From an uncultured bacterium (lineage in GTDB: Bacteria; Hydrogenedentota; Hydrogenedentia; Hydrogenedentales; CAILVY01): DNA of 44,971 bases. Made by a program: the position numbers and the translations under genes. Of this stretch, positions 21,309 to 44,971 are shown piece by piece. The first letter of the stretch is position 1. The number at the start of each line of letters is the position of its first letter. The stretch is from contig CALEDJ010000019.1 in NCBI GenBank assembly GCA_937951485.1, positions 1-44,971 on the forward strand, written 5' to 3'. Below the pieces are notes generated by a model. The model was not told the DNA's origin and ran no database searches. It worked only from the letters and a program-made list of their open reading frames with translations.

Positions 21309-21795
21309 CGATATTGCGCACGCTTCCGGCATCCGGGATGCCCCCGCAACACCCATCCAGGCCGTCGCGGCATGCAGTCCCTGTTGGTGTAAACATCCCG
21401 GCTGCCATTGAGGGGATGCTGCCGGATCACGCTGCAATCAGGGGCTGATATTCGCGTCCAAACAGCAGTGAAGGCAGGGAAAGCGAAGATATGGACGTGT
21501 CGTGCGTGGTCAGCGACGACCAGGGCCGGTACGGCCATGCCATGATCCTGCCGTCAATATAAACTCGTTTATGTCGGGTCAAACTTGGGCCGCAACCCCG
21601 TGCCAAACAAATGCAAGGTTGTGGTCATGTGGTGTTCGGCGACACAAGCCTTGCCATAGAACTGTGTCTCTTTTCTTTCTAGCAGAGACCTAACGCTGAT
21701 TTCACAGAAGCCCTTTATCCTTCCTGCAATAGCGTGTGCGACTGAAACCGTCAAAGAGGCTGGAGACTTTTCCCGTAAACACAAGGATTTTTGCC
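21309..21795. other. Intergenic, no gene supported
   Basis: Nearly 490 bases without a credible gene. A 23-codon frame at 21491-21562 has a weak ribosome site and no recognisable character. The composition falls in GC toward the phosphatase start. Confidence 0.4.
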
Positions 21796-23154
21796 ATGAG
21801 GAATGATGCAGGAAGTGGAAAACTGAGGGTGATTCTGAGCGGTGCTTGTCTGGTGACGGCATCAATGCTGTTGCTGGTGTTGCTGGTGGGAGCGGAACCC
21901 GAACCCAGTCTTTTTCACGTGCCGCAGCGCGTTGTGCTTTCCTGGACCGATGACCCGGCGCGCACGCAAGCGGTTACGTGGCGAACGGAAAAACCTGTGG
22001 ATGGACCTCGGGCACAGATTGCCGCCATGAGCGGCAATCCCGGCCTGGAGAAGACCGCGGTGGTTGTGCAGGGTCTGGGGGGCGTCATTGAGGTTGGCGC
22101 CGGTGAAATCGCCGGGCATTATGAAGCGCGTTTTGAGAATCTGACACCGGGCACCGCCTACGCCTACCGAGTGGGCGACGGGGTAACGTGGAGCCCCTGG
22201 TATCATTTTCAAACAGCCGCCGCACAGGCTGAACCCTTCCGGTTTCTGTATTTCGGCGACGCGCAGAACAACATCGCTTCTCTGTGCAGCCGGGTGTTTC
22301 AGACGGCTTTTCGCCATGCACCCGACGCCCGCTTCCTGCTGCATGCCGGTGATCTGGTCAACGACGGCTACGATGATCGGGCATGGGGCGAATGGTGCGC
22401 CGCATTGGGCTTCATCAGCGCCTGGATTCCGAGCATGGCCGTCGCAGGAAACCATGACTGGCACCAGGCCCCAGGGACAACGCAATCGCCGACGGGGCCC
22501 ATGATTGACCCCCTGTGGCGGATGCATCTGGCGCTGCCGTTGAACGGTCCTGAAGAGGCTCCGAATCTGGAAGAAACCACGTATTATTTTGATTATCAGG
22601 GCGTCCGGATTGTTTGTCTGGACTCCAATCTCTATGCACACGACAAATTGGACCCGCGACTGCTGGAAAGCATCAGCACACGAAAAGAGCAGTGGCTAAG
22701 GGAAACCCTCCAGAGCAATCCCCATCCCTGGACGATTGTCGTGCATCATCATCCCATCTACTCCGTCGGAAAAGACCGTGACAACAGCCGTCTCCGTGAT
22801 GCGTTGCTTCCGATCTATGACGAATACGGCGTGGACCTTGTGCTTCAGGGGCACGATCACTATTACGCGCGATCGCACAAATTGCGGGGCGGTGAGATTG
22901 TCGCCGCGGACGCGCCCGGCACCATCTATGTCGTATCGGTCAGCGGCCCCAAGATGTACTCCCTCAACAGAAAGTTTGAATATCTGATGGCCGTATTACG
23001 GGGCGAAACGCAGATGTTTCAGATTATTGATGTTGAACCGGGCCGCCTCGCGTTCAAGGCATATTCCGTCACCGGCGAATTAGTGGATGCGTTTGAACTG
23101 CATCGGAACGCATCCGGCGAAACTGCCCTCAAAAACCTTCTCCCGGCGGAGTGA
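21796..23154 (+). CDS. Purple acid phosphatase-like metallophosphoesterase
   Basis: A 452-residue exported phosphoesterase. After a hydrophobic N-terminus (about residues 10-30) comes a fibronectin-like N-terminal domain (RVVLSWTDDPARTQAVTWRTE..., ARFENLTPGTAYAYRVGDG) typical of purple acid phosphatases. The metal-site motifs follow in order: YFGDAQNN, HAGDLVNDG, VAGNHDWH, IVVHHHPIYS and QGHDHYYARS. It probably frees phosphate from organic phosphates in the periplasm or outside the cell. ATG 21796 has AAGGA about eight bases upstream. It could belong to the same phosphate economy as the transporter at 39870, but no PHO-like repeat was found before it. Confidence 0.88.
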   Translation: MRNDAGSGKLRVILSGACLVTASMLLLVLLVGAEPEPSLFHVPQRVVLSWTDDPARTQAVTWRTEKPVDGPRAQIAAMSGNPGLEKTAVVVQGLGGVIEVGAGEIAGHYEARFENLTPGTAYAYRVGDGVTWSPWYHFQTAAAQAEPFRFLYFGDAQNNIASLCSRVFQTAFRHAPDARFLLHAGDLVNDGYDDRAWGEWCAALGFISAWIPSMAVAGNHDWHQAPGTTQSPTGPMIDPLWRMHLALPLNGPEEAPNLEETTYYFDYQGVRIVCLDSNLYAHDKLDPRLLESISTRKEQWLRETLQSNPHPWTIVVHHHPIYSVGKDRDNSRLRDALLPIYDEYGVDLVLQGHDHYYARSHKLRGGEIVAADAPGTIYVVSVSGPKMYSLNRKFEYLMAVLRGETQMFQIIDVEPGRLAFKAYSVTGELVDAFELHRNASGETALKNLLPAE

Positions 23155-24619: not shown

Positions 24620-25861
24620 ATGATTACACGGCAATGCACAATAATGACATTTGTTGTTTCCACTGTTGCGCTCTGTTCCGGCCCGGCCATGGCGGCCACT
24701 ACCTTCATGGCGGAGACCTGGAATACCGCACCAACGGGGGTCATTGCTTCCGGAACCCTGGCGGCTGACAACATCTATGACGTTGTGCTGGAAGCAAATG
24801 GCGGGCAAGTGGTCATCGTGGATTTGGGCGCCGGCAACAAGGTGCTTGAGCATCAGACAGTCGGATCAGCCACGGCCACACATAGATTCACCACAGTCGT
24901 CCCTCCTGCGAACCAGATACCCTTGGACGCAGGAGAAATCCGGTTTCAATATGATGTTACTGTTATGGAAGCCACCAGCAATAACGGTAACCGTCACCTG
25001 GGCATTCAGGTCCACGCCGGTTCCGGGTCACTGGACGGATACGCGGTACGTTTTGCTCCCCGCAGCGATGGCTGCCGGCTGGAGGTCGGGTCCATTGATA
25101 ATGGCGCCGCGCCCGCTTATACGGAGATCAATGCAGACAAACCGGTTCAGATTCTGAACAAGACACTGCGGGTATATGTCGTGTTGCGCCCAGGCGTCGC
25201 GATTACGGAGATTGATTACGCGGTCCGGAACATCACCGATGACGTTGATTTCATCGCCCCCGGCACCTACACCCTCTCCTTTGCGCCCGACGCGGGCACG
25301 GTTGCCAATACCGCTGTGGTGTTCGTGCGCCAGCGAACACGCTGCCAGATGGATAACCTGTCGGTGATCTATCACCCCGCGGGCGGTGAAGGCGAAGGCG
25401 AAGGCGAAGGTGAAGGCGAAGGTGAAGGTGAAGGCGAAGGCGAAGGTGAAGGCGAAGGTGAAGGCGAAGGCGAAGGCGAAGGCGAAGCCGGACCGTATAT
25501 CACCGGGAATGGCACAGCCGTGCTGGGCAGGGAATTGCGTTTGCAAGTGCAGTTCCCGGGGGCGGTGGGCCTGGTCACGTATTCCTGGTTCAAGGACGAC
25601 GAACCCTTGATGATCTATGACAGAACCCTGGTCATCAGTTCTGTGCGGTACACGGATGCAGGTGCCTATTATTGCGAAGTGACGGATGAATCCAAAGGCA
25701 TTTTCACGACACCGGTCTTCATCGTGACGGTCGTGTCCGCGGTCCCGATATTTGGATTCGGGGGAATCGGCATAACGACCGCCTTGTTGGCCGCAATCAG
25801 TATTCTGTTCCTGCGCAGATATTCCCATCGTGCGTCTCATGCCGCAAACCGGTCAGTTTAG
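24620..25861 (+). CDS. Secreted surface protein with GEGEGE linker, Ig-like domain and C-terminal anchor
   Basis: A 413-residue exported protein. A signal peptide (to about residue 29, AMA-A) is followed by a beta-rich domain of about 220 residues similar in feel to lectin-like folds. Then comes a linker of about 17 Glu-Gly pairs (25385-25488). An Ig-like domain follows (GRELRLQVQFPG...YSWFKDDEPLMIYDRTLVI...DAGAYYCEVTD). A C-terminal helix comes next (FGFGGIGITTALLAAISILFL) with Arg-Arg-Tyr and a basic tail. The end is laid out like a sorting signal. The start 24620 has AAGGAG. It is next to the pilin-like gene. The 3' end overlaps the opposing gene by 65 bases. Confidence 0.75.
   Translation: MITRQCTIMTFVVSTVALCSGPAMAATTFMAETWNTAPTGVIASGTLAADNIYDVVLEANGGQVVIVDLGAGNKVLEHQTVGSATATHRFTTVVPPANQIPLDAGEIRFQYDVTVMEATSNNGNRHLGIQVHAGSGSLDGYAVRFAPRSDGCRLEVGSIDNGAAPAYTEINADKPVQILNKTLRVYVVLRPGVAITEIDYAVRNITDDVDFIAPGTYTLSFAPDAGTVANTAVVFVRQRTRCQMDNLSVIYHPAGGEGEGEGEGEGEGEGEGEGEGEGEGEGEGEGEGEAGPYITGNGTAVLGRELRLQVQFPGAVGLVTYSWFKDDEPLMIYDRTLVISSVRYTDAGAYYCEVTDESKGIFTTPVFIVTVVSAVPIFGFGGIGITTALLAAISILFLRRYSHRASHAANRSV
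25385..25488 (+). repeat. GGCGAA/GGTGAA hexamer repeat coding for Gly-Glu linker
   Basis: About 17 tandem hexamers. The same type of sequence appears at the very end of the window (44951-44971), in another secreted protein, which marks it as a recurrent linker in this genome. Confidence 0.9.
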
Positions 25862-39607: not shown

Positions 39608-39662
39608 TTTGACGGTTGTTTAACGATATCCTAACAAGGGCCTAATATTGATTTTGTATCCT
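39608..39662 (+). promoter_or_regulatory. PHO-box-like array of four 11-bp direct repeats with -10
   Basis: Four cores repeat with a strict 11-base period: TTGACG (39609), TTAACG (39620), CTAACA (39631) and CTAATA (39642). This is the layout of PhoB/PhoP-type boxes, in which dimers bind 11-bp tandem repeats. TATCCT (39657-39662) lies nine bases after the last core and could serve as the -10. The gene downstream is a phosphate transporter fusion. The pattern is seen directly; the regulator is inferred. Confidence 0.65.
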
Positions 39663-39869: not shown

Positions 39870-42365
39870 ATGCTAACCGGGAGTCATGAACAATCAGGGC
39901 GTATAGGACTCCGGACCGGCCTGATCTTTTTTGGATGTGTTGTCGCTGCATTGATCGGATGCGATGGCGGGCCGCCGCCGATTCCCGACATTTTGTTGCC
40001 GGATGAGTATGCATCGGGCGATCACCAGACCGGGGTATATGGGGAACCGTTGAAGCAGCCGTTTCGGGTTGTGCTGGAGGGACCGGTGGAGCCGGGGCTG
40101 CTGGGCGGCGCCGGTTCTCGGTGGGGGGTATCCAAAACGACGGTACGTTTCTCTGTGGTGAACCCGGCGACGGGTGCGGTGTTCACGCAGTCGGGCGCGC
40201 CGGTGCAGGATGTGCTGACAGATGCCGGGGGCGCAGCAGATGCGACGTTGCGTTTGGGGGACTGGTCTGGAGATATCTGGGTCGAGGTGTCGGTCCCCGA
40301 CCATCCCCGTGTAAAGCCGGTGCGTTTGCGCGGCATTGCAGGGGTGGAGCGGATAGGGGATGATCTGGAGGCGGCAACGGGCGGCGTGATTGATGAGATC
40401 GGGGTGCGTCTCTTCAATCCCGACGGCAGCCCTGTGCCGGGGGTGGAAGTGTATTTCCGTGCGGAAGGCGGCCCGGACGGCGGATCAGTCAAGCATGACC
40501 GGGTCATCACCGATGCAGACGGACGGGCGGTCACCCCCTGGAAACTGGGCAAATCGGTCAAGCGGCACTACGCATCCGTGGAAATCCGCGATACCCGGGA
40601 GAATCTTTCCGCCAAAGAACGTTTTGACGTGCGCGCCATCGAAATCCACGCGATGGCCATGAACAAAATCTATCTGATTACGGTGATGCTGGGCGGCCTC
40701 GCCGTGTTTATCTTCGGCATGACGATCATGTCCTCCGGCTTGCAGCGCATGGCCGACCGGCGACTCAAGCAGATTTTGAACGTGATGACGCAGAACCGTT
40801 TCGTGGGCGTGGCCGCCGGTACGCTGGTTGCCGCCACGCTTCAATCTTCGAGCGCCACCACGGTGATGCTGATCGGTTTTGTCAATGCGGGCCTGATCAA
40901 CTTGTTTCAGAGCATCGGCGTGGTGTTCGGTGCGAACATCGGCACCACCATGACCGCGCAATTGATTGCCTTTCAATTGGATTCGTTATCCTACCCCGCC
41001 ATTGCCATCGGATTGGTTATGGCGGGCACGCTGCGGCGGCCCTATCTCAAGGCGCTGGGGGAGGCGATTCTTGGATTCGGCCTGCTCTTTTTGGGCATGA
41101 GCACCATGTCGGATATCTTGAAGCCGGTGCGTTACAGCCCGGAATTCATCGAGTACTTCAAGATGTTCGATTGCACTCCCAAAGGCTCCGGCCATATCAT
41201 GCCGCCCGTTCCCACGCTCATGTGCATCGTCATCGGCACGGTGATGACCTGCATCGTACAGTCCAGTAGCGCCACGGTTGGCCTGGTGCTGGCCTTGTGC
41301 AGTCAGGGGTTGATCAGTTTCTACACCGCGGTTCCGCTGATCCTCGGCGACAATATCGGCACGACGATCACCGCCAATCTGGCGGCGCTGAACGCCAACC
41401 GAAACGCGAAACGCGTTGCCCTCGCGCACACGTTCTTCAACCTTTTCGGCGCGGCATACATGTATTTGCTGTTCTATGTCCCAATCTGGAAAGGCGAACC
41501 GGTGTTCCTCGGTTTTGTGGACTGGATTACGCCGGGGGAAGTCTTTTCCGTCGCCCCCGAAAACCTTGTGCGCCATGCCGCCAACGCGCATACCATTTTC
41601 AACTTTGCCAATATGGTTTTTTTCCTGCCTTTCGTGGGCTTGCTTGCCAGATTCTGTCAAATTGTCATTCCCATGACGGAGGCCGACCGCGACACCGTGC
41701 TGCAATACCTGGAACCCAAACTGCTGCAATCACCTTCCGTCGCCCTGGAACTGGCGGTGCGGGAAGTCGTGTATATGGTGCGCAAAGGCCAGAATTCGGT
41801 CAATGAAAGTTGCGAGTTGCTTTGTGCCGGCCAGGACGGTCTCGTCAAGAGAATCCTGGAGCGGGAAGAACTTATTGATCGGTTGCAGCAGGAAATAACG
41901 GAATACCTGGTGGCGCTGTCCCGCAAGAACCTCGAACCTTCCGAGTCCGCATTGATTCCCGCGCTCATTCACGCGGTCAACGACGCGGAACGCCTCGGCG
42001 ATCATGCCGAATCGCTTGTGGAATTGCGTCGCCTGCTTGACAAGGGTTCGTTCACGTGGTCCCCGGATGCCAACCGTGACATTTTTGCCATCCGATCCTG
42101 CCTGAACAAGCAGTTTGAGGCCATTTTCATTACCCTGGAGGGGAATGAACCGCACGGCGTTGAAAAGGCGATCGAAGCCGGGCGCGAGTTGACCAATCTG
42201 GTCAGGCAATGCACCGAGAACCATGTGAAGCGTCTGGAAGCCGGCGCCTGCCACGTTCAGGCGGGCGTCATTTTCCTGGATGCGCTGGGTCATCTGGAGC
42301 GGGTGGGGGATCACCTTGTCAATATTGCGGAGCGCGCGGGCGCCATCCTTGAAGTGACCCGATAG
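39870..42365 (+). CDS. Na/Pi cotransporter fused to lipoprotein Ig-like and PhoU domains
   Basis: An 831-residue membrane protein. The N-terminus has a lipoprotein signal ending VVAALIGC, followed by about 200 residues with two Big/invasin-like domains (TVRFSVVNPATG..., SPVPGVEVYFRAEGG...SVEIRDTREN). Then come two Na/Pi-cotransporter (PF02690-like) repeats, each with the QSSSAT motif (ATLQSSSATTVM and VQSSSATVGLVL) and GANIGTT / GDNIGTT. The C-terminal 200 residues are PhoU-like helices (ERLGDHAESLVELRRL, ERVGDHLVNIAERA). It takes up phosphate with sodium. The start is uncertain: 39870 gives a normal signal length, while 39831 and a TTG at 39780 are possible and no good ribosome site is seen. 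Confidence 0.88.
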   Translation: MLTGSHEQSGRIGLRTGLIFFGCVVAALIGCDGGPPPIPDILLPDEYASGDHQTGVYGEPLKQPFRVVLEGPVEPGLLGGAGSRWGVSKTTVRFSVVNPATGAVFTQSGAPVQDVLTDAGGAADATLRLGDWSGDIWVEVSVPDHPRVKPVRLRGIAGVERIGDDLEAATGGVIDEIGVRLFNPDGSPVPGVEVYFRAEGGPDGGSVKHDRVITDADGRAVTPWKLGKSVKRHYASVEIRDTRENLSAKERFDVRAIEIHAMAMNKIYLITVMLGGLAVFIFGMTIMSSGLQRMADRRLKQILNVMTQNRFVGVAAGTLVAATLQSSSATTVMLIGFVNAGLINLFQSIGVVFGANIGTTMTAQLIAFQLDSLSYPAIAIGLVMAGTLRRPYLKALGEAILGFGLLFLGMSTMSDILKPVRYSPEFIEYFKMFDCTPKGSGHIMPPVPTLMCIVIGTVMTCIVQSSSATVGLVLALCSQGLISFYTAVPLILGDNIGTTITANLAALNANRNAKRVALAHTFFNLFGAAYMYLLFYVPIWKGEPVFLGFVDWITPGEVFSVAPENLVRHAANAHTIFNFANMVFFLPFVGLLARFCQIVIPMTEADRDTVLQYLEPKLLQSPSVALELAVREVVYMVRKGQNSVNESCELLCAGQDGLVKRILEREELIDRLQQEITEYLVALSRKNLEPSESALIPALIHAVNDAERLGDHAESLVELRRLLDKGSFTWSPDANRDIFAIRSCLNKQFEAIFITLEGNEPHGVEKAIEAGRELTNLVRQCTENHVKRLEAGACHVQAGVIFLDALGHLERVGDHLVNIAERAGAILEVTR

Positions 42366-44384: not shown

Positions 44385-44971
44385 ATGAAGTCGGGGCATA
44401 TGTCGCCTTTTCTTCTCGCAACATGGTTGGCGATGACGTGGCTGACGGCGTTCGCCAGTGCAGATGCCAATGAAGAAAAGGCCGTTTATCGGCTCAGGTT
44501 GTACCAGGAAGGCGTTGGCGGGCTGAATCCCCCTCCCGGAACTTATTTTTTCGACCAGGGCGCATTTGTTTTCATCCAGGCGTTTTACACAGATCCCGCA
44601 TGGTATTTTCTGGAATGGCGTGGCGATCTGGAGGGCGTTCACCGATTCGGCGGCCAACTCTCCTACACCGTGGACCAAAATCGGGATATCACCGCAGTCT
44701 TTGCCGAATGGCCCAAATGGACCCTCACGATCAATGTAATCGGCGGTGGCACCACCAATCCGCCCCCAGGCGAGCACGTCTATATTGACCGGCACCTCGC
44801 CACCGTTACCGCTATCCCGGACGAAGGCTGGGAATTCGATCATTACGAGGGCGACCTTGACGGCACTTTTCCCACCGACCCTGTCGCGGTCATGAATATG
44901 TGGCGCGATCGTCAGATTACGGCATATTTCGTTGAGATTATTGAGGGCGAGGGGGAAGGCGAGGGCGAAGG
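44385..44971 (+). CDS. Secreted InlB-B-repeat protein with GEGEGE linker (3' end missing)
   Basis: An open frame of 195 codons that runs off the window. A signal peptide (PFLLATWLAMTWLTAFASA-DA) is followed by two beta-grasp 'bacterial repeat' domains of the divergent InlB B-repeat type, each with the usual G..NPPPG.Y......V...A......F..W.GD pattern (GVGGLNPPPGTYFFDQGAFVFIQAF... and GGGTTNPPPGEHVYIDRHLATVTAIPDEGWEFDHYEGDLDG). A Gly-Glu linker begins at the end. It is a cell-surface or secreted protein. AAGGAGG lies about six bases before the ATG. ATTTCGCAAAT (44309-44319), the core of the dispersed repeat, lies in its upstream region. The sequence has no stop or frameshift in this part. Confidence 0.82.
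   Translation, partial: MKSGHMSPFLLATWLAMTWLTAFASADANEEKAVYRLRLYQEGVGGLNPPPGTYFFDQGAFVFIQAFYTDPAWYFLEWRGDLEGVHRFGGQLSYTVDQNRDITAVFAEWPKWTLTINVIGGGTTNPPPGEHVYIDRHLATVTAIPDEGWEFDHYEGDLDGTFPTDPVAVMNMWRDRQITAYFVEIIEGEGEGEGE

Follow-up and report, generated by a model that had tools for sequence, protein, structure and literature searches.

A predicted PHO-box promoter before an nptA-phoU fusion gene and its counterparts across Candidatus Hydrogenedentota

Introduction

In a genome of the uncultured phylum Candidatus Hydrogenedentota, four short tandem repeats and a -10-like hexamer precede a gene for a putative phosphate transporter. Which regulator reads these repeats, and do they mark a wider regulon? 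The window, i.e. the whole stretch of 44,971 bases analysed here, represents contig C19 of that genome (4.55 Mb, 94% complete). Its first-pass annotation proposed a PHO-box-like operator, closer in sequence to those of Bacillus and cyanobacteria than to that of Escherichia coli, and suggested that it might provide the PHO consensus of a little-studied phylum. The E. coli PHO box is made of 11-nt repeats with the sequence CTGTCAT (PMC4415409, PMC1906773). In the current model PhoB binds 11-nt repeats in tandem, head to tail (PMC4415409), and the repeats lie just 5' of a TAN3T -10 element (PMC1906773). We found no published PHO box of Hydrogenedentota in the literature searched, in which one discussion of phosphate gives gene lists only.

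Results

The array and the gene that it precedes

The four hexamers and the TATCCT element reported earlier were all confirmed in the sequence, as was the period of exactly 11 bp (Table 1). The segment 39609-39647 is the sole array of three or four YTRAYR units with 11-bp spacing on either strand of the window, in which no Rfam family was found. The part conserved in nptA orthologues comprises the inner repeats at 39631 and 39642 together with TATCCT. The f10 orthologues have two repeats, and the distal ones at 39609 and 39620 are additional copies in the source genome.

The downstream gene does encode a Na/Pi cotransporter with PhoU domains, as had been proposed. Its product combines two Na_Pi_cotrans repeats (PF02690, 1.7e-60) with two C-terminal PhoU domains (PF01895, 9.4e-22) and matches TIGR00704 above its cut-off. 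The start codon is probably the ATG at 39870, because translation from there yields a lipoprotein signal peptide whose lipobox Cys31, counted from that ATG, is nearly invariant among 15 NptA orthologues. The nptA leader would therefore be approximately 200 nt long. Judging from the signal peptide, the N-terminal region of some 250 residues, which has a weak Big_1 match, is probably lipid-anchored outside the membrane.

A second box, missed in the first-pass annotation, lies in the same window 75 bases 5' of the ATG of a predicted secreted purple acid phosphatase (Table 1).

Table 1. Features of the predicted phosphate regulon in the window, elsewhere in the source genome (contig C12) and in related genomes
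Feature	Location	Strand	Remarks
PHO repeat 1, TTGACG	39609..39614	+	distal; not conserved among f10 orthologues
PHO repeat 2, TTAACG	39620..39625	+	distal; not conserved among f10 orthologues
PHO repeat 3, CTAACA	39631..39636	+	core; conserved in orthologues
PHO repeat 4, CTAATA	39642..39647	+	core; 9 bp 5' of the -10 element
-10 element TATCCT	39657..39662	+	starts 15 nt after repeat 4 starts; phoB/pstS promoters of relatives have TAnAnT at this offset
nptA-phoU fusion, regulated gene	39870..42365	+	lipoprotein signal peptide, Ig-like extracytoplasmic region, PF02690 x2, PF01895 x2
Second PHO box: CTAGCA 21679, CTAACG 21690, TTCACA 21701	21679..21706	+	repeats 11 bp apart
-10 element TATCCT	21716..21721	+	hexamer and 15-nt offset identical to nptA
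Secreted purple acid phosphatase (Pur_ac_phosph_N + Metallophos)	21796..23154	+	predicted Pho regulon member
phoB	C12:29066-29752	-	cognate regulator; PHO promoter upstream
phoR-like kinase	C12:27283-29055	-	follows phoB; cache-like, HAMP, PAS, HisKA and HATPase domains
PHO promoters before DUF47-PiT operons	L134 (G002), L135 (G001), L139 (G055), L199 (G049)		L134: TATCCT at the same offset

A motif built from phoB and pstS regions of other genomes

We searched for motifs de novo in 58 upstream regions of PhoB (best match) and PstS genes from other Hydrogenedentota, with the source genome and every nptA gene excluded. Iterative matrix building reached CTAACA-N5-CTAACA-N9-TAnAnT in 43 of these regions, and the best solutions from 40 random seeds were the same motif moved by a few bases. 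The suggestion that the locus might give the PHO consensus of the phylum was supported, with a consensus for Candidatus Hydrogenedentota drawn from 43 promoters. The tandem arrangement is also seen in the spacing of YTAAYR pairs, which peaks at 11 (19 regions); spacings of 22 and 27 occur in three regions and one region, and the remaining spacings from 6 to 40 are absent. In both the de novo motif and the promoters of the window, repeats take the place of a -35 element and TAnAnT follows just downstream, at a fixed 15-nt offset. With training sets from which the whole genome in question had been removed, scores of at least 12 were obtained for 23/30 phoB and 17/29 pstS regions. The regions below this threshold include phoB genes located 3' of pst, as in G036 and G050; such genes need no promoter of their own.

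Applied to the window, the matrix gave its top score, 24.0, at 39631-39662 (next register, 20.4), and the purple acid phosphatase box at 21679-21721 was the second-best place (15.1). Among 200 replicas of the window generated by a first-order Markov model, the highest score was 17.4, with scores of at least 15 expected 0.04 times; in the window itself the reversed motif did not exceed 11.5.

Specificity in the source genome and in the phylum

Across the whole source genome, the pattern of three repeats plus the -10 element without mismatch was found before phoB and nptA only. Allowing one mismatch added the phosphatase, a shifted register of nptA and a match at C29:19375, whereas two mismatches yielded noise (25 matches versus 37 in the control). 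The C29:19375 match lies upstream of an unrelated gene for a secreted protein, and we treated it as a probable chance occurrence; an array at C49:14248, upstream of an oxidoreductase-like gene, was likewise attributed to chance.

In 68 genomes of the phylum the strict promoter pattern had 33 matches, versus 5 for the reversed control. By position and downstream reading frame, these were assigned to pst (11), nptA (6), DUF47-PiT (4), phoB (3) and an MFS family (2), with 7 other or unassigned. Similar arrays are therefore not equally common at genes unrelated to phosphate, as 24 of the 33 strict matches precede pst, nptA, phoB or DUF47-PiT genes. The box is found before phosphate-acquisition genes, often before phoB as well, and not generally elsewhere. 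The exact YTAACA-N5-YTAACA pair without the -10 element showed no excess over its reversed control in 60 whole genomes, and claims of specificity therefore rest on three repeats or on repeats plus the -10 element.

The MFS matches precede orthologous transporters, L150 (G003) and L262 (G049), which makes this gene a candidate new member of the Pho regulon. A strict PHO-type promoter is also conserved in four genomes of the g28 genus, L202-L205 (G045, G038, G057 and G053), with a DnaJ-like reading frame on its 3' side in L202 and L203.

Transporters that carry the box

We compared full-length nptA orthologues with available upstream sequence, defining PhoB orthologues by at least 60% identity. 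Each of the six genomes with PhoB and without PstS, the source genome included, has the box before nptA, but only one of the nine with both proteins does (Fisher p=0.0014, kinship ignored); five of the six belong to one family. The 11-bp pair is present upstream of nptA in each of these six genomes, and the periodicity is thus conserved in those orthologues where it is expected. Among the seven nptA-bearing genomes without a recognisable PhoB orthologue (G004, G008, G012, G015, G020, G025 and G044), none has an nptA box at a score of at least 20, with one at 15.7 (Fisher p=0.0006, kinship ignored). These lineages have apparently lost the phosphate regulon.

Two members of the source genome's family, G001 and G002, are without NptA and PstS. 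They encode a PiT transporter, its gene preceded by one for DUF47 (PhoU_div); the PHO box sits before this DUF47-PiT operon. For pstS, the association between the box and the presence of PhoB was not significant (Fisher p=0.20); G003 and G030, whose assemblies are fragmented, have a box before pstS and no clear PhoB orthologue among the matches scored. PstS and PiT were not found in the source genome, but the absence is not certain as the assembly is 94% complete; no PstB match exceeded the curated cut-off.

The source genome encodes a cognate PhoB-PhoR pair (Table 1). The recognition helix R[AST]VDVQ[IV][VAT]GLRKKL is nearly uniform among 28 PhoBs, which fits the uniformity of the box. The only PhoU domains of the source genome are the two fused to NptA, and NptA is therefore likely to be the source of the phosphate signal for PhoR.

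Discussion

The de novo motif, the conservation in orthologues and the genome-wide scans agree in supporting the PHO-box interpretation, with PhoB binding as its prediction. We hold it highly probable that the array is a four-repeat operator at which PhoB turns on nptA-phoU at low phosphate; we infer the binding, the activation and the import from sequence. The segment 39609-39662 would thus very probably be a PhoB docking site of a kind that recurs across the phylum before phoB and the main phosphate transporter. Phosphorylated PhoB dimers would bind the four 11-bp direct repeats head to tail at the -35 position. Four repeats could seat two dimers, with the inner pair adjoining RNA polymerase and the outer pair presumably raising affinity or cooperativity. 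When phosphate is low, PhoB would recruit RNA polymerase to the weak -10 element TATCCT, switching on nptA-phoU. One promoter type would then serve a minimal regulon of phoBR, the importer nptA-phoU and the scavenging purple acid phosphatase.

Could the array be read by another response regulator of the OmpR/PhoB family, a paralogue in place of the phosphate regulator? Binding to direct repeats of 10-11 bp is common among OmpR-family regulators, response-regulator matches run to dozens per genome and include second PhoB-like proteins approximately 40% identical to this PhoB, and G003 and G030 retain pst boxes without a recognised PhoB. Nevertheless, we consider a paralogue very unlikely, as the box precedes phoBR itself in 23/30 cases as well as pst, nptA, pit and a phosphatase gene, and as no nptA box was found in the seven genomes without a PhoB orthologue. 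That AT-rich hexamers acquired an 11-bp spacing by luck, and did so upstream of a phosphate gene, is barely conceivable. Loose YTAACA-N5-YTAACA pairs are indeed no commoner than in the reversed control of 60 genomes, but the matrix score of 24.0 compares with at most 17.4 in the 200 replicas, and the conservation in orthologues and the genome-wide scans, with exact matches at nptA and phoB only, refute a chance origin.

A further alternative accepts the PHO box and questions the gene, which might encode a phosphate exporter or a protein with a purely regulatory role. Proteins that combine a Na/Pi cotransporter with PhoU include E. coli YjbB, reported to be a phosphate exporter. Several observations make this very unlikely. 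The box tracks the main phosphate transporter of each genome, be it pst, pit or nptA, as expected of import under starvation, and the source genome has neither a detected PstS or PiT nor a PstB match above the curated cut-off. In addition, the NptA of Staphylococcus aureus, which also has a PhoU domain, imports phosphate (PMC13170248). We favour import as the direction of transport by NptA-PhoU.

The predicted PHO-box promoter belongs to a known class, and its consensus is specific to the phylum. Its hexamer YTAACA is closer to the boxes of cyanobacteria (CTTAACCT) and Bacillus (TTAACA) than to CTGTCAT, in agreement with the first-pass annotation. The PhoP boxes of Bacillus subtilis consist of TTAACA-like hexamers with N5 spacers in several copies. 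They share with those of Hydrogenedentota a near-identical hexamer, the 11-bp period, tandem copies before the -10 element and, as predicted for Hydrogenedentota, an autoregulated two-component operon. Hydrogenedentota differ in preferring C over T at the first position, in a usual conserved core of two repeats and in the recognition helix VDVQI[VA]GLRKK. The boxes of cyanobacterial SphR have a 3-bp linker, and autoregulation of phoBR is uncommon in that group (PMC1906773). Common to both are the 11-bp period, the TTAAC core and the phosphate genes served, whereas the CT...CT flanks are missing here and phoBR autoregulation is predicted to be common.

Similarity with E. coli extends to tandem 11-bp repeats in place of the -35 element, a TAN3T -10 element, and phoBR and pst as targets. 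The E. coli PhoB recognition helix carries the residues HIRR, where Hydrogenedentota have QI[VA]G, a difference that matches the contrast between CTGTCA in E. coli and CTAACA here. Because the PHO consensus varies among species (PMC4415409), CTAACA excludes only the E. coli subtype of box. The geometry of the contacts may also differ, given that the -10 element lies approximately 15 nt from the start of the last repeat here, versus approximately 18 nt implied for E. coli (PMC1906773).

This is the first PHO consensus that we found for the uncultured phylum Hydrogenedentota, and it makes the regulon predictable from sequence. Less expected is the wiring, with one promoter type for three importers that each have their own PhoU-type partner. 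It is quite possible, if slightly short of an even chance, that the promoter follows the importer of each lineage (pst, nptA-phoU or DUF47-pit) with its partner, and that in lineages such as that of the source genome transport is coupled to PhoR only through the fused PhoU domain. If so, NptA-PhoU would be importer and phosphate sensor of the regulon in one protein. Speculatively, in the absence of Pst and free PhoU, the PhoU domains of NptA would inform PhoR of the flux of phosphate. The nptA gene of S. aureus depends on PhoPR, and its product takes up Pi and modulates PhoPR through its PhoU domain (PMC13170248); by analogy, this lends support to possible signalling from the fused PhoU to PhoR here. 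PhoU, PitR (DUF47) and NptA-PhoU of S. aureus each pair with one transporter family (PMC13170248), whereas several Hydrogenedentota genomes have a single pair of transporter and PhoU-type protein. Lineages devoid of Pst thus represent a natural experiment on phosphate sensing by PhoR. If a transporter-fused PhoU suffices, the classical requirement for Pst would be lineage-specific, as the 2026 S. aureus study also suggests (PMC13170248).

Like its S. aureus counterpart, NptA of Hydrogenedentota is a Na/Pi transporter fused to PhoU and predicted to be controlled by a phosphate two-component system; unlike it, the protein has an added N-terminal Ig-like region, probably lipid-anchored. A lipoprotein signal peptide followed by an Ig-like region (39870-40650) is odd for a polytopic transporter, and it is conserved across orthologues. 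Elsewhere in the window, predicted surface proteins contain long Glu-Gly linkers (GEGEGE) at 25200-25600 and 44930-44971, and the repeat also occurs in the protein encoded at G000:C12:34828-36177.
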